Positions 6,017-37,066 of a stretch of DNA of 64,000 nt are shown piece by piece. The stretch comes from Candidatus Latescibacterota bacterium (GTDB taxonomy: Bacteria; JAAXHH01), in contig JAJEAN010000007.1 in NCBI GenBank assembly GCA_022822725.1, positions 626,382 through 690,381 on the forward strand, in the 5' to 3' direction. Made by a program: the position numbers and the translations under genes. The stretch's first letter is position 1. Every line of letters starts with the position of its first letter. Under the pieces are notes generated by a model. The model searched no databases. It saw only the letters and a program-made list of their open reading frames with translations, and had not been told where the DNA came from.

Positions 6017-7741
6017 TCAGTTTCCGCGCGGCCAGGGCGTCTCGGGCGGACCGAAATGCGGCGCGCCCAGCACGGGGGTCGACAGGCAGTAGAACCCATG
6101 GTTGGTGAATAGCCAGACCAGGTTCCGGTCGTATTCGACGTAAATCCCATGGGTCAGATTGCCCAGTGCGTATTCCGGCGTGCGGGACGGGTCGAACTTC
6201 GGTACGAAGTAAGCCGTAATCTTTGGATCGGAAAGATCGGAGACGTCGAAAACCTGTACGCCGGCGTTGTAGAAGGCATAGAGGAGGATGTCCTCCTTCG
6301 GCGTTCCGGGCTGGGTATAGTAGCCGCTTCGTTTCGGCCCGAAGCTCCCGCGCCGCTGCACGAAATCCGTGAAAGGCGCCTCCGCGGGCGGCACCGGCCG
6401 GGGCAGCGTACCGATCAGCCTGGGACTGGCCGGATCGTTCACATCGATCATGAGGATGTCTTTGTAGGGCTCCCAGCCGTCCTCGTTCAGCGGATAACCG
6501 GAGAAGTAGACCACGCCGGTCTTTTCAACCTGCGTCACGTTGATGTAGTCGCCTTCCGTGCCCGCGACGCTGGGTGGAAAGTTGAGATGGCCCAGTGCCT
6601 TGATTCCGGTTGGATCGGATATGTCCACCACGTAGAAACCCAGGCCACCCATGGCGGCGTATCCGTACCTCCCGCCATCCTCCACCGGCCTGGGCATGAA
6701 GATCGACATGCGCGCGCCGAACCAGGAGGTGCGGTTTCCGGCCCTGGGATTGGTCCGGTAGGCGGCCTCGTCGTCCGGGTCGCCCAGTTTCTGTCCCGGC
6801 ACGTTGAACTGGCTGAGAAACACGGGATCGGCCGGGTCGGACATGTCCCAGGCCTGATAGCCGGCCGAATACAGGTCGCTCGGGTATTCGGTCAGGGCAT
6901 ATTCCGCACTCGGCGCTGCGGCGACGAACATGTACCGGCCGCCGTGATAGGCCGGGATGTCCCGCACACCTGAACCCTGTTGCCGTCCGACGGGCGCGCC
7001 GGGGTTTTCGTAGTCCGTGGTTCGCTCGGTGAGCAAGGACCAGTCTTCCGGCAGAGGCCCGTTCATCTCGTATACCTTGAACCCTTTGAGATGATTGGCG
7101 TGGCGTATCGCCTTCACCTTGTCCGGTTCCGTTCGCTTGTCGCTCAGTACGCCGAAACGCCGGATCTCGAAGGCCTGCACCATGATGTACTTGCCCAGGT
7201 CCGCGTTCCACTGGATGGACGCGGCGCCGAACATGTCGTCTTCCGCATAGGGATTGACCTCTTCGCCGGGACCCTCCCCGGTCCACGTGCTGCCCTTTTC
7301 GTGCACGACCTTCAGGTCTCGCGGATCGGTGATGTCATAGATTTTCAGGGCACGCCGCACGTACTGGTACATGTACCTTCGGCCGTCGAAGTCCACGATG
7401 TTCTGCCAGGTATGGAAGGGTTCTACAGTAATCGGGTAGTAGGCCTCGACGGTCATGTCCTTCGCGTATTCGTTCGTATCCCAGTAGTCCAGCTGGCCTT
7501 CGAAGGGTTTCGACTCTTGCTGGTGCGGGGTGGCCGCAGGATAGACGAACCGGCCGGTTTCCGGGTCCATCCCGTAGCTGGCGGGATCGGGTGCGGGGGG
7601 CGTACGATCCTCCACCAGCGCGTCGGCGCGGAGGACATATTCGTCCGTAATGGTGGACTGGGGCGGGGATTCGCTTTCCGTGGAAGATACGCAGCCGGTG
7701 GCGATCGTTCCGCTCAGAAGCGCGGCAACGAGCGTCTTCAT
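6017..7741 (-). CDS. LVIVD-repeat lipoprotein
   Basis: A 574-residue predicted lipoprotein: hydrophobic N-terminus with the lipobox ATGC, Cys17, followed by an acidic Ser-rich stretch. The body carries LVIVD-type propeller repeats recognisable as ALKIYDITDPRDLKVV, FYVVDISDPTGIKALG, ILMIDVNDPASPRLIG and VQVFDVSDLSDPKITA. These repeats form beta-propellers in surface or periplasmic proteins of largely unknown function. Its ATG overlaps the stop of the upstream FAH-family gene by 4 bases, implying translational coupling and a shared task. A 268-base gap separates it from the PQQ dehydrogenase downstream. Confidence 0.85.
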   Translation of the reverse strand: MKTLVAALLSGTIATGCVSSTESESPPQSTITDEYVLRADALVEDRTPPAPDPASYGMDPETGRFVYPAATPHQQESKPFEGQLDYWDTNEYAKDMTVEAYYPITVEPFHTWQNIVDFDGRRYMYQYVRRALKIYDITDPRDLKVVHEKGSTWTGEGPGEEVNPYAEDDMFGAASIQWNADLGKYIMVQAFEIRRFGVLSDKRTEPDKVKAIRHANHLKGFKVYEMNGPLPEDWSLLTERTTDYENPGAPVGRQQGSGVRDIPAYHGGRYMFVAAAPSAEYALTEYPSDLYSAGYQAWDMSDPADPVFLSQFNVPGQKLGDPDDEAAYRTNPRAGNRTSWFGARMSIFMPRPVEDGGRYGYAAMGGLGFYVVDISDPTGIKALGHLNFPPSVAGTEGDYINVTQVEKTGVVYFSGYPLNEDGWEPYKDILMIDVNDPASPRLIGTLPRPVPPAEAPFTDFVQRRGSFGPKRSGYYTQPGTPKEDILLYAFYNAGVQVFDVSDLSDPKITAYFVPKFDPSRTPEYALGNLTHGIYVEYDRNLVWLFTNHGFYCLSTPVLGAPHFGPPETPWPRGN

Positions 7742-8910
7742 GGCTTGGCTTCCATGGGCGTGACGAGCCTGCCGATGCCCTCGATCTCCATTTCCACTAT
7801 GTCGCCCGGCATGAGGTATTCGGGCGGATTCCGGGCGCGGCCTACACCGTCCGGCGTGCCCGTGGCGATCACGTCGCCCGGATAGAGGGTCTGGACCGAG
7901 GTCAGATACCGGATCATGTACGCTTCATTGTAGATCATGTAACTGGTGTTGCTGTCCTGCTTTATCACGCCGTTGACCCAGGTCTTTATGTCGAGGTCGT
8001 CATGCTGGATGAATTCCTTCGGCACGATGTAGGGCCCGAAGGGGGCGGCGCGGTCGCTGCTCTTGCCGTTGAACCAGTTCGGCCCGGGGAACATGCGGTT
8101 GATCGGTTTCAGTCCGTCGCCGCCCCGGCGGCTTACGTCGAACAGTATGCTGTAGCCGAATACATAGTCGTGGGCGTTCTCCAGGGTCAGGTCCAGCGCC
8201 GGCCTGCCGATGATGATGGCCAGTTCGGCTTCCCAGTCGATGTTCACGTCCTTCGGCACGTAGTAGGGTTCGCCCGGATCGATGATGGTGGATCTTGGCG
8301 ACTTGGCGAAGAAATAAGGTTCTTCGGCGTCCACGTCCACTTCCAGGGCGGTGAAACCCGCGCCCCCGATGGCCGATTCTTCCATCTCGTCCGCGTGGGC
8401 CCGGTAATTCGCAGCGGCCGCCAGCAGGTTGTAGGGGTACTTGATCGGCGCCTTGAAGGAGACGTTCTCCGGATCGAATACGAAGGCCAGGTCCGGGTTC
8501 GACAGGCGGTTTTCCGCGCCCATGTAGTTCGCTATCGTGTACATGCGGTTGGAAACGGCGTCGTACTGCTCGATCAGCGCACGCATTTCCTTCGGAATGG
8601 ATACCGTCGGCAATCCAAGCTGACGGGTGACGTAGGCATTCGCCTCGTGCAGGTCCATCAGTCTCTCCTGACCCGGTTGGCCCGTCTGGTCCGGTTGGCC
8701 CGTCCGGACCGGTTGGCCCGCCTGGTCCGGTTGGCCCGTCCGGACCGCCATGCCGATGCGGATGGTTCCCGTGGCCTCGAAGGTTGCCAGTTTGAAGGGC
8801 GTGTCCGGCTGGTCCGAAACCTGGGACCGGGCCGTGCCAGGTGCAGTCAGCCATAGTGCGGCGCCAATCAACAGGACGGCGGCCGGCAGAAATCGTATCC
8901 GGTACGACAT
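7738..8910 (-). CDS. Exported fumarylacetoacetate-hydrolase (FAH) family protein
   Basis: I start at the ATG at 8910 because a strong GAGGAGG lies about 9 bases upstream; this gives 390 residues. Residues 1-30 look like a cleavable signal peptide (MSYRIRFLPAAVLLIGAALW then TARSQ). The C-terminal half is a typical FAH domain: AEEPYFFAKSPRSTI, DWEAELAIIIGRPA, FGYSILFDVSRR and VIATGTPDGVG, a fold that hydrolyses or decarboxylates C-C bonds of 2,4-diketoacids using a divalent metal. Family members are normally cytoplasmic, so export is unusual. Residues about 56-82 are a Gly-Gln-Pro tandem repeat placed where a beta-hairpin turn is expected (RIGMAV before it, RLMDLHEAN after it). The gene overlaps the LVIVD lipoprotein gene by 4 bases. 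Confidence 0.87.
   Translation of the reverse strand: MSYRIRFLPAAVLLIGAALWLTAPGTARSQVSDQPDTPFKLATFEATGTIRIGMAVRTGQPDQAGQPVRTGQPDQTGQPGQERLMDLHEANAYVTRQLGLPTVSIPKEMRALIEQYDAVSNRMYTIANYMGAENRLSNPDLAFVFDPENVSFKAPIKYPYNLLAAAANYRAHADEMEESAIGGAGFTALEVDVDAEEPYFFAKSPRSTIIDPGEPYYVPKDVNIDWEAELAIIIGRPALDLTLENAHDYVFGYSILFDVSRRGGDGLKPINRMFPGPNWFNGKSSDRAAPFGPYIVPKEFIQHDDLDIKTWVNGVIKQDSNTSYMIYNEAYMIRYLTSVQTLYPGDVIATGTPDGVGRARNPPEYLMPGDIVEMEIEGIGRLVTPMEAKP
8673..8744. repeat. 18-bp in-frame tandem array inside the FAH gene
   Basis: Four consecutive 18-base units starting CCGGTTGGCCCG. The last six bases vary alternately (TCTGGT, TCCGGA, CCTGGT, TCCGGA), giving a 36-base higher-order period. Read on the minus strand they encode six-residue units such as GQPVRT and GQPDQA. 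The length preserves the reading frame. Confidence 0.95.
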
Positions 8911-9101
8911 TGCGTCATCCTCCTCGAAAACCGGTCGATCAGGGCGCGTCTGAATCGCCAGGACGAGTCTGCGCACCAGATCGCGGAGTTACGTATTCGG
9001 CGACCCGTCGAAGCATCCGACCGGGAAGTCGCTGGGTAACTGGGTACGGAAGCGAACGGGCAGAATGGATATGCTGATTTTCTGTTGATGGAGAAATCGG
9101 A

Positions 9102-11901: not shown

Positions 11902-12909
11902 TCAGCCGTCGATCCCGCAGTCATCCAGGTAACGGTCCACCGACGCCTTCAGCGGTAAATCTCCCCCCATCACCTGTTCTGCATAGTCGCGGTACCAGCC
12001 CGGAATCAGGGACCGGGCCTCACGGAATTCGGCGAGGATGAGCCTTGCGAAGTCCCCGCTGTCCTCCAGGTAGCCGGATTCGTAAAAGTGCGCGATCGCC
12101 CGTTCGCGGTCGTACTCGAGCCGGATGATCTCCGCTTTCCACGCACCGGATTCGAACGTCATCTGTGCGTAGGCTGCACGGGGATCCCGGTCGAATGGCG
12201 CGCCCACCGCGCCCACGTTGACGACAAGGGCATCGTCCACGGTCCGGATCAGGGGCCGGTGCGTGTGACCCACCACCAGCACCTTCGGCGCCGGTGCGAT
12301 TTTCTCGCGCAGCGCAGCTTCGGTATCATCGGGGAAGATCCCCTTGCGGTCTCCCAGCATGGAAGCGTGCACCATGCGGAATTCGTTCCCCGCCTCATCG
12401 GTCATGGACCACTGAAAGGGCAGCGCTTCGAGGCGTTCGACCAGCCCGTCCGGACTATCCGGGCTATCCGGACTATCCGGGCAGTCGGCGCTATCCATGC
12501 GGTCCGGGCTATCCGGGCTATCCGGGCAGCCGGCGCTATCCATGCGGTCCGGGCTATCCGGGCCGGCCTGACCAGTCCGGTCGGCCTGCCCGGCCTGGCC
12601 AGTCTGCCCGGCCAGTTGATCGTACGTCCACTTGGCATGCCGGATGATCTCGAATTCAGGACCGTGGTCGGGCAGGTTACCCTTTCCGTATTTCAGCACG
12701 TACCGCTCGTGGTTCCCACAGATCATGCCCCAGTCTTCCGCCATGGCACGACGCACAACCCGTTCGGTGCACGCCCGGGGATTCGGTCCCCGGTTGATGA
12801 TGTCGCCCGCGCACAGGACCCGGTCTGGTCGCCACCGGTCGATGTGGTCCAGGACGGTTTCCAATGCGTCCAGGTTGCTGTGCACGTCGGCGAAAACGGC
12901 GATCTTCAT
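11902..12909 (-). CDS. Calcineurin-like metallophosphoesterase with a repeat insertion
   Basis: A 335-residue YfcE/MJ0936-like phosphoesterase. Metal motifs are in order: FADVHSN, CAGDIINRGPNP, ICGNHERY and LVVGHTHRP, providing the Asp, His and Asn ligands of a dinuclear centre. Residues about 101-155 are a tandem Gly-Gln/Ser-Pro-Asp repeat that interrupts the fold between TYDQLAG and LVERLEALPFQW. Without it the length would be near 280, normal for the family with a C-terminal extension. Members hydrolyse phosphodiesters or nucleotides; the substrate is unknown. It starts 2 bases after the DMFase-like gene stops and probably shares its transcript. Confidence 0.9.
   Translation of the reverse strand: MKIAVFADVHSNLDALETVLDHIDRWRPDRVLCAGDIINRGPNPRACTERVVRRAMAEDWGMICGNHERYVLKYGKGNLPDHGPEFEIIRHAKWTYDQLAGQTGQAGQADRTGQAGPDSPDRMDSAGCPDSPDSPDRMDSADCPDSPDSPDSPDGLVERLEALPFQWSMTDEAGNEFRMVHASMLGDRKGIFPDDTEAALREKIAPAPKVLVVGHTHRPLIRTVDDALVVNVGAVGAPFDRDPRAAYAQMTFESGAWKAEIIRLEYDRERAIAHFYESGYLEDSGDFARLILAEFREARSLIPGWYRDYAEQVMGGDLPLKASVDRYLDDCGIDG
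12451..12612. repeat. 9-bp and 45-bp in-frame tandem array inside the metallophosphoesterase gene
   Basis: The basic word is CGGGCTATC (9 bases; Ser-Pro-Asp on the minus strand). Two near-identical 45-base units lie at 12460-12504 and 12505-12549, differing at two positions, with a third partial copy from 12550. The right part (12562-12612) shifts to a degenerate GGCCTG/GGCCAGTC pattern encoding Gly-Gln-Ala/Thr. The total keeps the reading frame. Confidence 0.95.
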
Positions 12910-12911
12910 GG

Positions 12912-15239
12912 TTATCGGGTCTGTCCAGTTCGGTCAGGCCGACCAGTCGGTCCAGGCTGGATAGGATGTCCAGGCCGTATGTGATGACCGGACCCGCCGG
13001 ACCGACCTGCCTGATCTGGCCGGTCGGAAGGTTCGTCTGACAGGAACCGGCGAAGCACGTTGGCCACGATCCTGGAAATGTCGCTGTCGGCATCGTTGTG
13101 CAGCAGGCTGCCGCAGAAGGTGATGGATCCCGTGGAGAAAAGCTGGCTGCCGGAGTCCGACTGCTGGTACACCATGTCCGCCCGGACCAGTTTCTCGATC
13201 GGCTCTCCGGACCAGGTCGTGATGTGGGTGAGCAGCTCTTCGGGGACGGGAATGAAGGATTCGTGGTGGTTTTCGGAACTTGCGACGATATGGGTATTTT
13301 CGGGTGTACCCAGCCGGAAGTCCGCCCGGTCGAGTTCGAATCCGGCGGCGCCGTTGCCGCTGTACCCGAAATCTCCCACGGTCTCGCGCTCCACACCCTC
13401 GAATATCCATGCGGTCTCCGGGTTGGCGCGGGCGTCCGGGTCGATGCGATAGTACGATCCATGGAAATTGCCCTGGGCCGAGAATCCCACGGCGGCGAGC
13501 TGCTGCGGGGGACGGTTGTTCCTGCGCCAGAGTCCGCCGTAACCGCCGTCGAAAGCCTGGAAGTACTCACCCGGTTCGGCCGCCCAGGCCCGAATGCCGC
13601 CTTCGTTCCGGCGGATTTCGAGGGTCCCGTCGCCTTCCGGGTGGACGGCGATGCGCCAGTAAAACCCGTTTCCGCCCAGGTACATGAAGTGGCCGCCCCG
13701 GTCCCTGTACTGCTGCAGCGCGTCGAGCGTGCGGGGCGTATGGTATTCCGGATGGGAACCCGTGGTTACGGCGCGGTAGTCTGCAATCGCCTCGATGCCG
13801 TCATCGTGCAGTTCCTGGTCGGTGACGACGTCGAATGGGATGCCCGTTTTCTCGAGCCACGCATACAGGTGCGTGTCCGCCTGCAGGTGCCTGAGTCCAG
13901 AGCAGTCTCCTTCCGTGGCGCCGAATGTGATGTAGCCCGGGCGGAGCGAGAACAGGGGGCGCCTGTGACTGGCGTGGCAAATGCCGCTTCCGTCACGGTG
14001 GAAGTTGTAGGTGGACAGCCCGTATTCCGGGTGAACGGCGGGGTTCCAGGGATAGGCTTTCCACGCTTCGATCCGTTCGAGCCAGGAAGGATGGAAATCC
14101 GGCCGGGCGTGATTGCCGTAGACGGTATAGGTGAAGGTGGACGCGAGGACGCAGAGATCCGCCGTGGGCCTGCCCCGCGGGGCGCAGACGTAGAACGGCA
14201 TCAGGTCCTCGTGTGCGCCGCACCGGATACGGGCCGCATAGAGCCCCGATCGCATCCCGTCCGGGATCGTGAAGGTGAAATCGGTCTCCCAGCCGAAGTC
14301 GTAGATGTCGTCGTCGTGGAAGTGGATGGCGCCGTACTGGTCCGGTGCGTGCTTCCAGGACATTTCCTCGCCGGACCACCGGGAACCGGTCATGGCACGG
14401 GCCGGCATGTTGACCAGGCGGCCGTGCAGATTCTGAGGCCCGATGTCCACGACCTGCGTCGAACTCGTGTCCCGGGCGAAGTCCCACAGGGCCCACACAC
14501 CCTGATGGTCTCTTACGTCGTATTCCCGGTTGTCGATTTCTTCCACCGGCATGTCGACGAGGGAGGGCGCTTCGATTTTTCCGTTGAAGTGGTCCTGGAC
14601 GGGATCGCCGTCCATTCCGCCGATGATGACCCGGGCCAGGACGTCTGAAGGTACGGGGTCGACGGCCGCGACCGTGATATCGGACGGGCCGGGTGTTGCG
14701 TGGACCGCTCGCAGCCCCACGCTCACCGTCCCGCTTCCGGCATCGTAGCTCGCCCACACCCGGTACCATTGCCGGTTCCTGACCGGCGCACTACGACAGG
14801 CAATGCGGTTCACCTGGTCCACCGATGAGCGGACAACGGCGATCAAGGCGCCGCGGTCCAGGCAAAGGCTGAAAACCGGATGCTTCTCGCCGCTGCCACA
14901 ACTGACGATTCCCTGGTCCGCCTTCTCGGGGGTCGTGGGCCATATCGTGGCGGAAAGGGCAACGCCGCCGGCCGGGTGGAAGCGGCCGTCAAGCGGGATG
15001 ACGGCGTGAGAACCCGGGTGGAACGGCTGGGACCTGGAAGGGAATTCGCCCCCGAAGGGCAGGCCGGCTTCCTCGAGCTGAAGCCCGGGGCCGGCGGGAT
15101 TGGGATCGGCGCATATCACGCGAACGAGGCTGGCCCGGTAAGGTGCTTCGGCCGCGCTGCTGACCTTGAAGGCGATCTCGTCGCCGGGCCGGCCGGACAA
15201 CCGGTCGGAGTAACCCAGCAGGGGGATGTCGGCCATCAT
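12912..15239 (-). CDS. N,N-dimethylformamidase beta-subunit-like protein
   Basis: A 775-residue protein. The N-terminal part (MADIPLLGYSDRLSGRPGDE) leads into a LamG-like sandwich with KIEAPSLVDMP and GVWALWDFARD. The C-terminal two-thirds resemble the N,N-dimethylformamidase large subunit: VLASTFTYTVYGNH, SLRPGYITFGA, DVVTDQELHDDG, VTTGSHPEYHTPRTLDAL and MYLGGNGFYWRIA. DMFase is an iron amidohydrolase that also needs a small alpha subunit; none is seen next to this gene, so the substrate is open. The last 35 or so residues are a degenerate Arg-Pro-Gly-rich tail. The ATG overlaps the end of the dioxygenase gene by 4 bases, indicating coupled translation. Confidence 0.85.
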   Translation of the reverse strand: MMADIPLLGYSDRLSGRPGDEIAFKVSSAAEAPYRASLVRVICADPNPAGPGLQLEEAGLPFGGEFPSRSQPFHPGSHAVIPLDGRFHPAGGVALSATIWPTTPEKADQGIVSCGSGEKHPVFSLCLDRGALIAVVRSSVDQVNRIACRSAPVRNRQWYRVWASYDAGSGTVSVGLRAVHATPGPSDITVAAVDPVPSDVLARVIIGGMDGDPVQDHFNGKIEAPSLVDMPVEEIDNREYDVRDHQGVWALWDFARDTSSTQVVDIGPQNLHGRLVNMPARAMTGSRWSGEEMSWKHAPDQYGAIHFHDDDIYDFGWETDFTFTIPDGMRSGLYAARIRCGAHEDLMPFYVCAPRGRPTADLCVLASTFTYTVYGNHARPDFHPSWLERIEAWKAYPWNPAVHPEYGLSTYNFHRDGSGICHASHRRPLFSLRPGYITFGATEGDCSGLRHLQADTHLYAWLEKTGIPFDVVTDQELHDDGIEAIADYRAVTTGSHPEYHTPRTLDALQQYRDRGGHFMYLGGNGFYWRIAVHPEGDGTLEIRRNEGGIRAWAAEPGEYFQAFDGGYGGLWRRNNRPPQQLAAVGFSAQGNFHGSYYRIDPDARANPETAWIFEGVERETVGDFGYSGNGAAGFELDRADFRLGTPENTHIVASSENHHESFIPVPEELLTHITTWSGEPIEKLVRADMVYQQSDSGSQLFSTGSITFCGSLLHNDADSDISRIVANVLRRFLSDEPSDRPDQAGRSGGSGHHIRPGHPIQPGPTGRPDRTGQTR

Positions 15240-29619: not shown

Positions 29620-32600
29620 TCAGCCGTGTTCCGTGGATTTCAGCTCCTCAAGCAACGTGTCGACCGTCAGACTGACGGCGGTCGCCGACTGCAACGTCTC
29701 GACCGGAACCGACACGTGCAGCCCCGTCTCGATCCAGTTTCTCAATTCCACGGCCATGAGGGAATCCACGCCCAGGCTGCGCCACGTCTGCACGAGATCC
29801 ACGCTCCCCGGATCCAACTCTACAATCCGGCAGATGGCATCGGTCACGAATTCCTCGATGTAGGCGCGAAGTTTGTCTGTAGGAAGCGCACTCGCATCGG
29901 ACTTCGATAACGGGGGAATCGACCGCGGTGCCAGCGTCTGATCACCGGGATTCGGCTCCAGCAAACGGACCAGAAGCGAATCCGCCGCAGGCGCCGTCGT
30001 GGGGATCACGCCCACGCGATGGATGTTGCGGCGCAATATCCGGTCAAGTGTCTCGCCGGCCGCGTCGGGCGGGATCAGCCGCAGTCCCTGCCGCCTGAGA
30101 CGATCGATGGCGCGCTCATCGGTCATCATCCCCGTACCTTCCCAGGGTCCCCAGTTGATCGTCGTCACAGGCAGGTTTTCTTTGCGCCGGAGATCCGCGA
30201 GTCCGTCAAGAAAGGCGTTCGCGGCGGCATAGGGCGCCTGTCCCGCCGTACCGATCACGGAAGCCGCCGACGAAAAGAGAACGAAGAGATCCAGATCCAG
30301 ATCCCTGGTCAATTCATGCAGATGCCACGCGCCGGTCGTTTTGGGTTCGAGTACCCGGCGGAACCGGCACGCGTCCTGAGTAATCAGAATGCCGTCGTCC
30401 AGCACGCCGGCCGCATGGAAGACGCCCCTAAACTGCGCATCCTCCCTGTCCAGATCCGAAAAGAGCCGCGCCATCGCCTCGTAATCCGCCACATCGGCCT
30501 GAACATACCTTACTTTGCCGGTGGGATCGGCATCAGGCACCGCCTCCTCGCTCTTCCGCCGGCCCGTAACGATTACCTGGCCGGCGCCGCGGTCGAGCAG
30601 CCAGTCCGTCAGATATCGACCGATCCCGCCCGTGCCGCCTGTGACGAGGTAGGTCTCATCCGGCCGGATGACCGGGTCGTCATCGCCCAGAGCCACTGGA
30701 ACGGTCGATCCGTCATCCACGAGCACCAGTTTGCCCGTATGCCGGGCCTGGGACATGAGCCGGAAGGCATCCCGCGCCTCGGCCATCGGATAGGTCCGGT
30801 GCGGCAGAGGACGGATCCTGCCATCCCGGGCCATGTCGACGATCTTACGCAGCAAGTTTCCTGCGCGATCAGGCTGTTCCGCGATGAACTGGGCGAGATC
30901 GATGGGATGAAAGGATCGATTGTGATCGAACTGGTTAAGGTCGATGAGACCGTGGTTCAACACATCGGTTTTGCCGATCTCGATGAAACGCCCGTGGCTT
31001 GCGAGCACGGACAGCGAAGCCGTCATGGCGGGCCCGGACAGCGTGTTGAGGACGATATCCATTCCCTTCCCATCCGTCTTCGCCAGGATCTTTTCTGCAA
31101 AGTCCAGCGTGCGGGAATCCATTACGTGAGCCACACCCATCTCCCGCAGTAAGGCCCGCTTTTCGGGTGATCCCGCCGTCGCGAATATCTCGGCTTCCAC
31201 GTTCAGTGCAAGTTGCAGGGCGGCCAGGCCCACACCGCCGGTCGCGTTATGGATCAGGACGCGGTCCCCAGTGGACATCCCACCCCGTACCACGAGACCC
31301 AGGTATGCCGTCAGGAAGGCCACAGGCAGCGTGGCGGCTTCTTCGATACCCAGGTGATCCGGCTTCTGGACCACCAGGGCGGCCTTCGCGGTCACGCAAC
31401 CCGCCATGGTTGCAGACATCATGCCCATGATCGTATCGCCAATTTCTATCGAGTTCACCTTGTCGCCCCGCGCCGTGACTTCTCCCACACATTCCCAGCC
31501 AAAGGACGGCGGACGCCTCGACGGGTCTCCCAGCATGCCGAGGGCGGTCAGCACATCCCGGAAATTCAATCCTGCCGCCCGCACGCGGATGGCCACCTCA
31601 TCCGGTGCCGGCTGAGGCACCTGTTCCGATACAAAATGGAGATTGTCGATCGAACCCGGCACGGACTGAGAGAGCCTGTAACTTGTTTTGGCATCGGCAG
31701 TTACGGGTACGGTTTTCGCTTCGCATCGCCCCAGGTCGAAGGGAACGAGACGGCGAACGTGGAGGTCAGTTCCCCGTAGCGAGATTTCACCAGGAAGCGT
31801 GTCCATGGCCACGATCGCAGCGAGTCGTTCTACATTGATGTCGGCTATCTCGCCGCTTCTGGCTGTCTCACCGGTCCTCGCCGTCTCACCGGTCCCGGCC
31901 GTCTCACCGATCCCGAGCGTCTCGCCGATCCCGGCCGTCTCGCCGCTTTCGGCCGTCGCGTAGTTTCCGGCCGTCTCGCCGCTTTCGGCAGGAAGGTCTA
32001 TCAATGTGCAGTCGAGTTCAGGATGTTCGCGCATGGCGACTCGTCCGCATCCCCAGATCGTCGCCAGTTCAGGTATCGCCCCGTCACCCGCGACCACAGA
32101 CTGCGCTCCCGCTGTAATCAATCTCAGTCGGCACGGAATCTCCGGACAGTCCAGCACCGCCCGGATCAGCTCAAAGGACTCCAGTGCTGGTCCCGTATGG
32201 CGGCCGGACTTCCGGTTGTCTGCTCCCGTCCAGATACCTGCGACAGCAACTAAATCTCCGGCAGCGGGTTCAACCGATCTCAGTCTTTCGAGGAGCAGAT
32301 CAGTCGCGGGCGACTTGTGATCGCCGGCGTGGTCGATGAATTCACTTTTTCCACCGTGTTGTGACAAGGCATCGACCAGACCGCCGCCGAGTCGTTTGTC
32401 GTCCGAGAGCACGAACCAGTGGGAAATTGTAGTGGGTTCAGCGTGAGTCTCCGGAGATGGTGCGTTTACCCACGTTTCCCGGTACAGTCCGTGTGGGTTA
32501 TGGATGCCGTGCGTGCCCGTGCCTGCCCGACCCAGACCCGCGCCGGCCGGAGACAGGCCAACGCCTTCCAAGGCAACTACGGGAAGACCCGTTTCATCGA

Positions 32601-35600
32601 CGATGCATACGTCGGCCAGCAGGCCGCTGCGTTCTGACGCATCCCGCAACCTGGCATAGCCGACGAGGGCTTCATGCGGTCCCGGAAGCCTGTGCAGCAC
32701 TGTGTTTGCCACGCCCACCGGCAGATAAGGACCGTCATCTGGTACGAGCATGAGCAGGGCCTGCAGGCCGGCATCGAGCACACCGGGGTGCAGGCGGTAA
32801 GAGGCCTGGTCATCATCCCGGACGGCCAGGAAGGCCAGCGCCTCTCGATCGGAGTAAACGAGTTCGTCGATCCGGCGGAACGCAGGCCCGTACTGAAACC
32901 CCAGATCGGCCGCGCGTTCGTAGAACCGGCGGCTTGTGGTCCGGCGGTCGCAACGGGATCTGACGGCTTCCAGATCGACGCGTTCGGCCATCTCATCCAT
33001 GCGGGCACGTTCGGCTCGCAGGTTCAGCAGCCAGCCGGAACCCTTGTCTTGCGATTCCGACCTGGAGGACAGGATGAACCGGTTCTGCCTGCGTACGATC
33101 TGGACGAGATGTGCGCCGGTTTCGGGCAATAACAGCGGGTTCAGGAGTTTAAGATCCTTGAAAGCGACCGGAATGTCCCCCTCGTCGAACGTCTCGAAGA
33201 GCATTTCGATCTGGCCCGCAAGGGGCATGATCGTACGGTTCCGTATGGCGTGATCCGCCAGCATCGGGTGGGTGTCCAGGCCGATCGTCCTTTCCCACAC
33301 GGTGGTATCTGGGTCCACGGACGATTCTACGCCCCTGCCGATCAATGGGTGCGGGTACCGACCGCTCGATTGATCCGCCATCCCGTCCAGCCAGTACCGT
33401 TCCTTCTTCCAGGGATATGCCGGCAATGGGACGGGCGTGCGAGGTCGATCTGCCAGACGTTCCCAGCGAATACCATGGCCTTGGACGTAACATTTCGCCA
33501 CGGCTTCGAGCAGGACTTCCCGCGCTCCGTGATCGCGACGCAACGAGGCGAGCGAGTAGCCCATCCGGTTCAGATGCGCCAGGTTCTCGTAAATGGCCGT
33601 TGACAGCACGGGATGGGGACCGATCTGGAGGAAAAGCGGCGTTGCGCCATCGGGAATCTGCTTGAACGAATGCGCGAAAGTCCGATCGAAGCGGACCGGA
33701 CTCCGGATGTTGCGCCACCAGTGGTCCGCCGTTAATTCCGTCCCTGCCACCGGAGCGCCGGTGACCGTGGACAACAGTGGTACCCGGATCTTAACGGGCG
33801 ACAGATCAGCCAGAGCCGCCAGGAATTCGCCGCGGATACCGTCCATTTGGCCGCTATGATAGGCCATTTCCGTATGTAATTGCTGACAGAAGAGCTGCCG
33901 GCCATCCATCTCGGCCTGCAGCCGATCGATTTCCGCTGTCTCCCCGGATATGGTTACGGAAACCGGGCTATTGACCGCGGCGACTGCCAGGCGGTCTTCG
34001 AAGGGCTCGATGGCCTCTTCCGCATCTTCCGGCGACAGACCCACGGCCAGCATCTCTCCCTGGCCCTGCAATGCCTTCTGCAGCCTGCTGCGCGCCCAGA
34101 TAATGCGAACACCCTCATCCAGGGTGAGTACGCCCGCGACGCAGGCGCCGGTGATTTCTCCGACACTGTGGCCAATGACGTACCGCGGTTCAATACCGAT
34201 GGACTGCCACCAGGATGCCAGGGCCCATTGCAGCGCCATGTTGGCGGGTTGGGCGACTTCGACGTCGGTGATTCGCTCCCCGGTTATGCCGTCCATCGTC
34301 TTTTCTATAATCGACTCTCCGGAAACCTCTGAGAAAAGGCGGTCGAACTCATCCAGCGCCTCGCGAAAAACCGGCTCGTCGTGATACAGTTCCTGGCCCA
34401 TGCCGTACCACTGGGGTCCCATTCCGGTGAAGACAAAGACAACGGGCGCTTGTTCCGCATCGGCCCGCGCAGTCTCGAACCGCTCGGGGAGGCCGCCGCC
34501 GCTGAACTGTTCAAGGCCCTCGGCGGCTTCCCCGGTCTGCCCGAAGACCAGTGCCAGGCGGTGATCGAGATGGGAACGCTGCAGGGCGAGTGCGGACGCA
34601 AGATCGCCGGGAGGCGTGCCGGGGCGGTCACGGAGCAGCGAAGCCGTATCCGATGCCTTTTGGTTCAGAGCGGCGGCGCTGTGGGCGGATAGGACCAGAA
34701 GTTGGGGAGTCCGCTGGGTGGTCACTTCGCGCTGGGCGGTCACTTCGCGCTGGTCGGATGCACTACGCTGACCAGATGCACTGCGCTGACCGGATACACT
34801 GCGCTGCCGGGACGCACCGCGTGAGCTGTGCTCTTCGGCTTCGACCGGGTCGCGATCTGTTCGTGCGCCCGCGGTATACCCGACGGATTCAGCGTCTGGC
34901 GGCGATCCAAGCACGACGTGGGCGTTGGCGCCGCCGAATCCGAAGGAATTCACGCCGGCAAGGGCGGGACCTGGAATGCTGACCGGCTCGGTGGCCACCG
35001 TCAGCCCAAGCGCTTCGAAGGGAATGTCGGGGTTCGGTTGATTGAAGTGCAGGGAGGGCGGCAGGATGCCGTGTTTGAGCGCCAGCGCCGTCTTGATGAG
35101 CCCGGCGACGCCGGCCGCCGCCTCGGTGTGGCCGATATTGGTCTTCACCGAGCCGATCATGCAACCGGTTGCGCCCGTGCCGCGCGTGGCCCGTCCGATG
35201 GCCATCGCTTCAATGGGATCACCCGTGGGCGTTCCCGTTCCATGGGCTTCCACGAAGGCGAGTTGAGCGGCGCTTACGCCCCCGGCGCCGGCCGCCGCCT
35301 CGATGACGGCTTCCTGTGCGCTTTGTCCCGGGACCGTCAAACCTCGGCTGCGCCCGTCCTGGTTAATCGCGGATCCGTGGATGGCCGCGTAGATCGCATC
35401 GCCGTCATCCACCGCTTCGGATAGCCGTTTCAGCACGACGATGCCCGCGCCGTCACTGCGGCCGTAACCGTTCGCCCCCAGGTCGAAGGCCCTGCAGCGC
35501 CCGTCCGGCGACAGCATCCGTGCTTGCTCGAATCCGCGCGTCGTCTGGGGCGTCAGAAGCAGATTGGCGCCACCGGCGAGTGCGGCCGTGCACGTCCCGG

Positions 35601-36159
35601 CCTGGATATCACGGCAGGCCAGGTGTATGGCGGTCAGGGACGAGGAACAGGCCGTGTCCACCGCGATGCTCGGACCCTTCAGATCCAGGAAGTAGGAAAT
35701 GCGGTTGGCCGCGACGCTCAGCGTCCCGCCCGTGTTAGTGTGCATGCCGACCTGCGAAGGCGCCGCATACCGCTGCAGGTCCCAGTATTCGTCCAGGAAG
35801 ATCCCCATGTAAACCCCGACGGGCCGGCCTTCCAGCCTTACCGGGAGGATCCGCGCGTCTTCCAGCGCTTCCCACGCGAGTTCGAGCAGGATGCGCTGCT
35901 GGGGATCGATGTGACGGGCCTCCCGTGGAGAGATGTTGAAGAACGCCGCGTCGAACCGATCGATTTCGTCGACGAAACCGCCCAATTCGGGAAAGGCTCC
36001 GCCGTCCGCCCACGGTTTCCACAGCGATTTCCGTTCATCCGGTACCGGACGAATGGCGTCTCCGCCGTTCAGGACGAATTCCCAGAAAGACTGCGGCGTC
36101 GATATCTTCCCGGGAAACCGGCAGGCGATGCCGATAATGGCAATGGGTTCACCGGACAT
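29620..36159 (-). CDS. Iterative type I polyketide synthase (KS-AT-DH-ER-KR-ACP)
   Basis: A 2179-residue single-module, fully reducing synthase. KS: DTACSSS (Cys171), EAHGTGT (His306), NIGHTEAAAG (His344). AT: GHSVGE (Ser665). DH: His970 in DHAIRNRTIMP, where Asn replaces the usual Gly, and Asp1129 in VLDAGLQ. About 1210-1500: a linker and structural subdomain. ER: LIHNATGGVGLAALQ near 1635. KR: VTGGTGGIGRYL near 1839, with catalytic Tyr1977 in APYAAANAF. ACP: LGVDSLMAVEL, phosphopantetheine Ser2133. No thioesterase is present. The order resembles mycocerosic-acid-synthase-like enzymes that make saturated, possibly branched, acyl chains. Its start overlaps lipM by 11 bases, at the end of the fatty acid synthesis operon. 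Two 18-bp repeat arrays lie in interdomain regions. Confidence 0.95.
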   Translation of the reverse strand: MSGEPIAIIGIACRFPGKISTPQSFWEFVLNGGDAIRPVPDERKSLWKPWADGGAFPELGGFVDEIDRFDAAFFNISPREARHIDPQQRILLELAWEALEDARILPVRLEGRPVGVYMGIFLDEYWDLQRYAAPSQVGMHTNTGGTLSVAANRISYFLDLKGPSIAVDTACSSSLTAIHLACRDIQAGTCTAALAGGANLLLTPQTTRGFEQARMLSPDGRCRAFDLGANGYGRSDGAGIVVLKRLSEAVDDGDAIYAAIHGSAINQDGRSRGLTVPGQSAQEAVIEAAAGAGGVSAAQLAFVEAHGTGTPTGDPIEAMAIGRATRGTGATGCMIGSVKTNIGHTEAAAGVAGLIKTALALKHGILPPSLHFNQPNPDIPFEALGLTVATEPVSIPGPALAGVNSFGFGGANAHVVLGSPPDAESVGYTAGARTDRDPVEAEEHSSRGASRQRSVSGQRSASGQRSASDQREVTAQREVTTQRTPQLLVLSAHSAAALNQKASDTASLLRDRPGTPPGDLASALALQRSHLDHRLALVFGQTGEAAEGLEQFSGGGLPERFETARADAEQAPVVFVFTGMGPQWYGMGQELYHDEPVFREALDEFDRLFSEVSGESIIEKTMDGITGERITDVEVAQPANMALQWALASWWQSIGIEPRYVIGHSVGEITGACVAGVLTLDEGVRIIWARSRLQKALQGQGEMLAVGLSPEDAEEAIEPFEDRLAVAAVNSPVSVTISGETAEIDRLQAEMDGRQLFCQQLHTEMAYHSGQMDGIRGEFLAALADLSPVKIRVPLLSTVTGAPVAGTELTADHWWRNIRSPVRFDRTFAHSFKQIPDGATPLFLQIGPHPVLSTAIYENLAHLNRMGYSLASLRRDHGAREVLLEAVAKCYVQGHGIRWERLADRPRTPVPLPAYPWKKERYWLDGMADQSSGRYPHPLIGRGVESSVDPDTTVWERTIGLDTHPMLADHAIRNRTIMPLAGQIEMLFETFDEGDIPVAFKDLKLLNPLLLPETGAHLVQIVRRQNRFILSSRSESQDKGSGWLLNLRAERARMDEMAERVDLEAVRSRCDRRTTSRRFYERAADLGFQYGPAFRRIDELVYSDREALAFLAVRDDDQASYRLHPGVLDAGLQALLMLVPDDGPYLPVGVANTVLHRLPGPHEALVGYARLRDASERSGLLADVCIVDETGLPVVALEGVGLSPAGAGLGRAGTGTHGIHNPHGLYRETWVNAPSPETHAEPTTISHWFVLSDDKRLGGGLVDALSQHGGKSEFIDHAGDHKSPATDLLLERLRSVEPAAGDLVAVAGIWTGADNRKSGRHTGPALESFELIRAVLDCPEIPCRLRLITAGAQSVVAGDGAIPELATIWGCGRVAMREHPELDCTLIDLPAESGETAGNYATAESGETAGIGETLGIGETAGTGETARTGETARSGEIADINVERLAAIVAMDTLPGEISLRGTDLHVRRLVPFDLGRCEAKTVPVTADAKTSYRLSQSVPGSIDNLHFVSEQVPQPAPDEVAIRVRAAGLNFRDVLTALGMLGDPSRRPPSFGWECVGEVTARGDKVNSIEIGDTIMGMMSATMAGCVTAKAALVVQKPDHLGIEEAATLPVAFLTAYLGLVVRGGMSTGDRVLIHNATGGVGLAALQLALNVEAEIFATAGSPEKRALLREMGVAHVMDSRTLDFAEKILAKTDGKGMDIVLNTLSGPAMTASLSVLASHGRFIEIGKTDVLNHGLIDLNQFDHNRSFHPIDLAQFIAEQPDRAGNLLRKIVDMARDGRIRPLPHRTYPMAEARDAFRLMSQARHTGKLVLVDDGSTVPVALGDDDPVIRPDETYLVTGGTGGIGRYLTDWLLDRGAGQVIVTGRRKSEEAVPDADPTGKVRYVQADVADYEAMARLFSDLDREDAQFRGVFHAAGVLDDGILITQDACRFRRVLEPKTTGAWHLHELTRDLDLDLFVLFSSAASVIGTAGQAPYAAANAFLDGLADLRRKENLPVTTINWGPWEGTGMMTDERAIDRLRRQGLRLIPPDAAGETLDRILRRNIHRVGVIPTTAPAADSLLVRLLEPNPGDQTLAPRSIPPLSKSDASALPTDKLRAYIEEFVTDAICRIVELDPGSVDLVQTWRSLGVDSLMAVELRNWIETGLHVSVPVETLQSATAVSLTVDTLLEELKSTEHG
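31849..31990. repeat. 18-bp in-frame array in the PKS region before ER
   Basis: Eight 18-base units (type CTCGCCGATCCCGGCCGT), the last shortened to 16 bases. They encode six-residue units such as ESGETA, GIGETA and GTGETA at residues about 1391-1438, in the structural subdomain before the enoylreductase. Confidence 0.95.
34712..34819. repeat. 18-bp in-frame array in the PKS KS-AT linker
   Basis: Six 18-base units beginning CGCTG, encoding six-residue units such as SGQRSA and TAQREV at residues about 447-482. They fall exactly between the KS domain (ending near 420) and the start of the AT domain linker. Confidence 0.95.
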
Positions 36160-37066
36160 GGCTCGCGGTCCTTCGATAGGTCCAGTGGGCGTTTGCGTAC
36201 CGGGTGCGGACCAACGACTCGGCTGCGCGCCGCTCGTCGGCGTCCAGCACGTCCGTTCGGCCTTCCACGTTCAGGCGATCAAGCATCGAACGGGTCAGGC
36301 GGTCGGTCCATTCCTCGAAGGATGGCAGATCGGGGATCAATTCGGCAACGGAGACAGTCCGCTGGTCCAGCAGCCGGGCGATGGTCTCCCGGCGTTCCGG
36401 ATCACGGGCGGGCATCAGCAGGGGGAGCCGGCGGTGTCCCGGTCCCAGAAGCAGGGATCCATGTTGCAGCACAACCCCGCGGGAGCGGCGCTGGGCGCTG
36501 CCGGCCAGCTTCCTGCCGCCCGCAGTGATCTCGTAACGTCCGATGGCCGTGAAGCATACGTCGTCATTGTTTCCCGCGCCGCAATGTGCTTCCAACGACA
36601 TCTCGGCCGGTATACCGAATTGCTTCAGCGTTTCGACCAGTGCTTCGCTCACCGCGCGGAGCATCACGCCGGAACGGCTGCCCAGCGCGGGATGGGATTC
36701 CGGCGCCACCAGGCTGTAGGCTAATTCCTGGTCGTGCAGCACCGCGCGCCCCCCGGTGATCCGACGGACCAGTTCGATGCCGTAACGTTCGCATTGGCCG
36801 GGATCGATCTCGCTGTCCAACTGCTGCCCGTATCCGATGGACACAGCGGGCGGGCGCCACGAATAGATGCGCAGCGTCATCATCTCCGCATCCCGCCGGC
36901 TCGCGTCCCGCCGACCCGCATCCCGCCGGCTCGCGTCCCGCCGACCTGCATCACGTCGGCTCCTGTCCCGTCGGCTCCCGTTCCGCCGGCAAGCGTCCAG
37001 CAGCGCTTCGTCCACGGCCATGTTGTACGCGGCGGAACATCCGGGCGTGGAAAGTACGCGAATCAT
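36149..37066 (-). CDS. Lipoate/octanoyl transferase-family protein, LipM-like
   Basis: A 305-residue protein of the biotin/lipoyl ligase fold. The N-terminal AAYNMAVDEALLDA is interrupted by a 35-residue Arg-Arg-Asp-Ala-Ser repeat (about 27-61), after which the conserved LRIYSWRPPAVSIGYGQ resumes. RRITGGRAVLHDQELAYSLV and VCFTAIGRYEITAGGRKLAGSAQRR follow; Cys171 and Lys186 match the positions used by LipM octanoyltransferases, which transfer octanoate from acyl-ACP to lipoyl domains. Lipoate-protein ligase is the alternative. Its start overlaps the rnc stop by 4 bases, and its end overlaps the PKS start by 11, so the three genes are translationally linked. Confidence 0.85.
   Translation of the reverse strand: MIRVLSTPGCSAAYNMAVDEALLDACRRNGSRRDRSRRDAGRRDASRRDAGRRDASRRDAEMMTLRIYSWRPPAVSIGYGQQLDSEIDPGQCERYGIELVRRITGGRAVLHDQELAYSLVAPESHPALGSRSGVMLRAVSEALVETLKQFGIPAEMSLEAHCGAGNNDDVCFTAIGRYEITAGGRKLAGSAQRRSRGVVLQHGSLLLGPGHRRLPLLMPARDPERRETIARLLDQRTVSVAELIPDLPSFEEWTDRLTRSMLDRLNVEGRTDVLDADERRAAESLVRTRYANAHWTYRRTASHVR
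36891..36995. repeat. 15-bp in-frame array near the 5' end of lipM-like gene
   Basis: Seven 15-base units (TCCCGCCGGCTCGCG / TCCCGCCGACCCGCA and variants). The first four alternate, giving a 30-base higher-order period. On the minus strand they encode Arg-Arg-Asp-Ala-(Ser/Gly). Confidence 0.95.

Follow-up and report, generated by a model that had tools for sequence, protein, structure and literature searches.

An in-frame minisatellite insertion in a metallophosphoesterase gene of a repeat-rich Latescibacterota genome

The window, by which we mean the whole 64-kb stretch of DNA that was analyzed, encodes a calcineurin-like metallophosphoesterase with a repeat-encoded insertion in its catalytic domain. 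The host is probably a sponge symbiont, as isolate labels and reports of Latescibacterota living with sponges suggest. The gene and three of its metal-binding sites are located as follows:

11902..12909, minus strand: calcineurin-like metallophosphoesterase gene, 335 aa (open reading frame; Pfam PF12850/PF00149), with orthologs in 11 genomes of the same genus and in one sister genus
12706..12717, minus strand: GNHE metal-binding motif, residues 65-68
12367..12369, minus strand: metal-ligand His181 (MVHAS), invariant in the homologue alignment
12259..12270, minus strand: GHTH metal-binding motif, residues 214-217

The 335-aa protein matches the Pfam profiles Metallophos_2 (PF12850; 75.5 bits in two stretches, against a gathering score of 27) and Metallophos (PF00149; 60.0 bits against 21.5), and its motifs D8xH10, GD35-36, GNHE 65-68, H181, and GHTH 214-217 are all intact. 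The metal ligands D8, H10, D36, N66, H181, H215, and H217 are invariant in an alignment of 17 homologues, in agreement with an earlier note on this DNA, which had described all ligands as kept. The profile scores, the DxH/GDx/GN(H/D)/H/GHxH motifs, and the fold, the latter seen on an insert-less ortholog, place the window gene in the calcineurin-like superfamily; its score for the YfcE-family phosphodiesterases (TIGR00040), 44.2 bits, lies below the curated NCBIfam cut-off of 56.25. The closest solved folds identified by Foldseek for the model of the insert-less ortholog are SapH (PDB 3QFM; E 4.6e-17) and 3RQZ (E 3.3e-16), with TM values normalized to the query of 0.66-0.74, and 3RQZ, a Sphaerobacter metallophosphoesterase, is also the top sequence match (E 5e-15). 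Identity to 3QFM and 3RQZ is, however, just 21-26%, and a helical extension at the C-terminus and the minisatellite loop set the window protein apart from them. SapH is a streptococcal asymmetric Ap4A hydrolase/phosphodiesterase, and its modeled likeness to the window enzyme appears to be one of fold alone (21-23% identity).

The insertion is located between the GNHE motif and the strand that carries H181, and is composed of segments of different age:

12451..12612, minus strand: in-frame insertion of 54 codons, 162 bp = 18 x 9 bp, delimited by ortholog alignment and missing from the 281-aa orthologs; its edges are ambiguous by a codon or two
12449..12563, minus strand: tandem array of 9-bp units (TCCGGGCTA on the plus strand; Pro-Asp-Ser in frame), detected by TRF
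12458..12502, minus strand: 45-bp higher-order unit, copy 1, detected by TRF
12503..12547, minus strand: 45-bp higher-order unit, copy 2, 43/45 identical to copy 1
12564..12612, minus strand: older degenerate nonamers (CAGGCCGGG-like; Gly-Gln-Ala), recognized by nonamer-spaced ortholog comparison

At the protein level, the insertion comprises residues 100-153, the net gain of a 335-aa protein over its 281-aa insert-less orthologs. The earlier note had given the exact coordinates of the 162-bp net insertion, 12451-12612, but its count of 55 residues was one too long and its residue range, 101-155, was shifted by one or two; the interval that it named, from GNHE to GHTH, does contain the insertion but is wider than the true one. 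TRF reports 9-bp and 45-bp periods within the intact 335-aa frame (score 198), the latter with 2.4 copies at 96% match over 12458-12563, which bears out the reading of the locus as an in-frame minisatellite, and the two 45-bp units are identical except for two bases, as had been stated. This score is far above chance, as the best of the 4-5 arrays found in 400 kb of Markov-simulated sequence reached 64-68. The array has the attributes of an intragenic minisatellite: it lies within an open reading frame, its unit lengths (9 and 45 bp) are divisible by 3, and its copy number varies between species (net length 0, or 45-162 bp in 9-bp increments). No inverted repeats were found in the insert region.

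We compared the window's own gene with its orthologs from all 11 same-genus genomes searched and from one sister genus. Six orthologs, five from the same genus and the one from the sister genus, have no insert and show a clean QL-DG-LVE-type junction, whose DNA reads CTGGACGGC CTGGTCGAA in genome G011 and is identical in G007 except for TTGGACGGC. The seven insert-bearing species, including that of the window, carry net insertions of 162, 108, 108, 81, 81, 54, and 45 bp; each length is a multiple of 9, and most of the nonamers are CNGGNCNGN-like. A tree built from the 281 shared codons unites these species in one clade with bootstrap 100, and thus the insert most simply arose once. The degenerate segment 12564..12612 is the part common to the other insert-bearing species (AGQ(T/A)GQAG), whereas beyond this AGQ..GQ head the inserts are not convincingly alignable, except in the close pair G002/G006, a sign of array turnover from one lineage to the next. 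The window's genome alone has the 45-bp duplication; the absence of this duplication from every sampled relative supports the earlier proposal of a recent expansion. The inserts range from 17 to 56 residues when measured from the flanking QL to the flanking LVE, and have net charges from -10 to +1, with 79-89% Gly/Ser/Thr/Pro/Gln/Ala/Asp/Asn in all seven species. The acidic Ser-Pro-Asp character noted before is private to the window's species.

Between insert-bearing species, dN/dS over the 281 shared codons is 0.07-0.19, and between insert-less ones 0.11-0.14; the enzyme is thus under purifying selection, and there is no sign in dN/dS of relaxed selection in the core of the insert-bearing enzymes. 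Decay into a pseudogene, which the earlier note had considered as a way of dismissing the insert, is rejected on the basis of these values and of the intact ligands. The AlphaFold2 model of the window protein has a mean pLDDT of 81.9, and that of the insert-less G007 ortholog 90.0. A comparison of the two models shows the core elements in the same order with and without the insert, and residues 105-150, between the helices 84-99 and 153-162, have pLDDT <50. The insert is thus predicted to encode a disordered surface loop in an inter-helix turn, in line with the unstructured loop foreseen from the letters of the DNA. Distant homologues have a short variable turn at the same position.

The insert is not special in its genome. 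Our array counts come from sampled regions of the 3.8-Mb host genome. TRF detects 108 arrays in a contiguous 400 kb of the same contig (2.7 per 10 kb), as compared with 4-5 per 400 kb of simulated sequence and one in 50 kb of E. coli K-12. A larger sample of 864 kb contains 247 arrays, 140 of them in predicted genes and 107 elsewhere, which extrapolates to ~600 in-gene arrays per genome; as this sample was partly picked around pattern hits, the count from 400 kb is the less biased of the two. The period is divisible by 3 in 122 of the 140 in-gene arrays, as opposed to 46 of the 107 outside genes (Fisher p=1.5e-13), a contrast that is inflated because frame-breaking arrays would be scored as outside genes; the gene calls were heuristic. 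The units are diverse in sequence and in period (6-96 bp); nevertheless, those containing CCGG are moderately over-represented (106 vs 64 expected), so the choice of unit is not fully random. In a comparison of 294 orthologous pairs, insertions of 5 aa and more number 45 in the window's genome, adding up to 718 aa, and 14 in the insert-less G007 (160 aa); in the window's genome, 15 of the 19 that measure at least 15 aa overlap TRF arrays. The metallophosphoesterase insert, 54 aa in this comparison, is the largest of the 45, followed by insertions of 52 and 45 aa. Given such a load, insertions that seem unique in proteins of this lineage are to be taken as background unless they are conserved.

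Several further repeats lie in the window, which contains 15 non-overlapping TRF arrays; about half of the arrays in the window and samples fall within genes, and their periods peak at 18 bp. In comparison with the G007 orthologs, an FAA-hydrolase-like gene (7738-8976, minus strand) has a 24-aa in-frame repeat insert (RTGQPDQAGQPVRTGQPDQTGQPG), a 2179-aa open reading frame (29620-36159, minus strand) has one repeat insert of 45 aa, of the TAG/GET type, and two inserts of 15 aa, and a lipoyl/octanoyl-ligase-like gene with an LplA/B catalytic domain (36149-37066, minus strand) has a 30-aa Arg-rich repeat insert near its N-terminus. The C-terminal tail of the DMFA2_C-domain gene adjoining the phosphoesterase (12912-13030, minus strand; SDRPDQAGRSGG...TGRPDRTGQTR) seemingly consists of the same CCGG-rich nonamer material. 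Elsewhere in the genome, MutS (G000:C9:2431000-2437000) carries a variable Gly/Asp-rich linker insertion, of which the insert-bearing clade has a longer version than G003, G007, and G009.

We consider it highly probable that the insert stems from the expansion of a minisatellite in this lineage, neutral or almost so, through slippage or unequal recombination, with the reading frame and the tolerance of the loop acting as filters. The process would have started from a 9-bp unit in the short inter-helix turn, on the branch leading to the seven-species clade, where the ancestral junction CTGGACGGC CTGGTCGAA may already have offered two similar nonamers as a seed; their 6/9 matches are suggestive. 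Replication slippage or unequal recombination would then have expanded the nonamer, with survival of only those changes that stayed in frame, in multiples of 9 bp, and the array would later have turned over in each species, gaining in the window's genome a 45-bp higher-order unit that was recently duplicated. The enzyme presumably tolerates the resulting disordered surface loop, while its catalytic core stays under purifying selection. On/off phase variation of the gene is unlikely, since 9-bp steps cannot shift the frame.

The single-clade distribution, the 9-bp steps, the fast turnover, the intact core, the predicted disorder, and the similar arrays elsewhere in the genome are direct results, from which slippage or recombination as the driving process, the seeding by the nonamer pair, and neutrality are inferred. 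The common AGQ..GQ head, the steady composition, and the lack of any loss in seven species may mean that a hydrophilic spacer is weakly selected for, although the repeat unit alone could also account for this. A functional loop that tunes substrate access, oligomerization, or partner binding and is selected for rapid variation appears unlikely to us. The retention of the insert in 7/7 species of the clade, its maintained hydrophilic composition, and its place in the catalytic domain, after the GNHE segment and before the His181 strand, would fit such a function; however, length (45-162 bp), sequence, and charge are all unconserved, enzymes of the same genus do without the insert, the core bears no mark of relaxed selection, and similar inserts occur in many unrelated genes, including mutS. 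The suggestion in the earlier note that the loop might alter specificity or partner binding finds no support, as the seven closely related species differ in both the length and the sequence of the insert, the site is variable in distant homologues too, and comparable inserts are common genome-wide.

Another possible source of the insert, a dispersed mobile or template-copied repeat family similar to the Rickettsia palindromic elements that entered the gene and then degenerated, is in our estimate very unlikely. It would be consistent with the enrichment of CCGG-containing units, with 15 genome matches to a nonamer-triple pattern (0 for the reversed control), and with GQ/PDQ-type stretches in the neighboring DMFA2_C-domain and FAA-hydrolase-like genes, and template spread between loci may occur, given the CCGG enrichment. 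A single dispersed element is nevertheless rejected, because array units with periods of 6-96 bp are too diverse for one family, inverted repeats are absent from the region, and length differences among the seven inserts come in complete 9-bp steps, the pattern expected from slippage. Finally, gene decay or an assembly artefact is scarcely credible as the origin of the insert: repeats are described as prone to misassembly in one source (PMC6868369) and metagenome assemblies may misjudge copy number, but the array is short (about 115 bp), the frame is open and the inserts are in frame in the separate genomes of seven species, no ligand is missing, and dN/dS is well below 1.

The repeat load of the lineage is of more interest than the insert itself. 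Arrays occur at 1.0-2.9 per 10 kb over most of the genus and at 0-0.5 in two outgroup samples (40 kb each and of lower GC). A rise of the load exactly with the insert clade is not clean, as the insert-less G003 also has 2.89 arrays per 10 kb, although G007 has 1.01, and loss of mismatch repair was rejected as the cause, with MutS domain I present in 16/16 relatives searched. We tentatively raise the possibility, itself rather doubtful, that GC-rich minisatellites are born at an unusually high rate in the genus and repeatedly add disordered loops to housekeeping proteins, including MutS, with a peculiarity of replication or repair behind it; if true, the genus would be a natural system for studying the origin of disordered loops in bacteria. 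A limited literature search found no report tying Latescibacterota or sponge symbionts to tandem-repeat load, and the array density in this lineage may be new to science.

Two known systems are instructive for comparison. Rickettsia palindromic elements are mobile palindromic families inserted in protein genes, selfish or neutral DNA that is tolerated as in-frame insertions at protein surfaces. In contrast, the arrays described here are tandem and diverse, and without inverted repeats the insert region does not resemble such an element. In-frame intragenic minisatellites, on the other hand, are already well described, and the window insert belongs among them. In Legionella pneumophila, 26 intragenic tandem repeats were found genome-wide with conservative criteria, all with lengths divisible by 3; these arrays are in frame, include 9-bp and 30-bp units, and differ in copy number between strains (PMC2639597). 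The array of the window gene is likewise in frame, inside a coding gene, and built of units divisible by 3, but the variation seen in its copy number is between species, and under roughly similar, though not identical, criteria the present genome has 42 in-gene arrays in 864 kb, or ~185 per genome, against the 26 of L. pneumophila. As a single case the insert is an ordinary repeat-grown loop tolerated by an enzyme. Its usefulness lies in the clean series formed by a dozen related genomes, which display the origin of the array, its growth in steps of 9 bp, its turnover, and the selection for reading frame.
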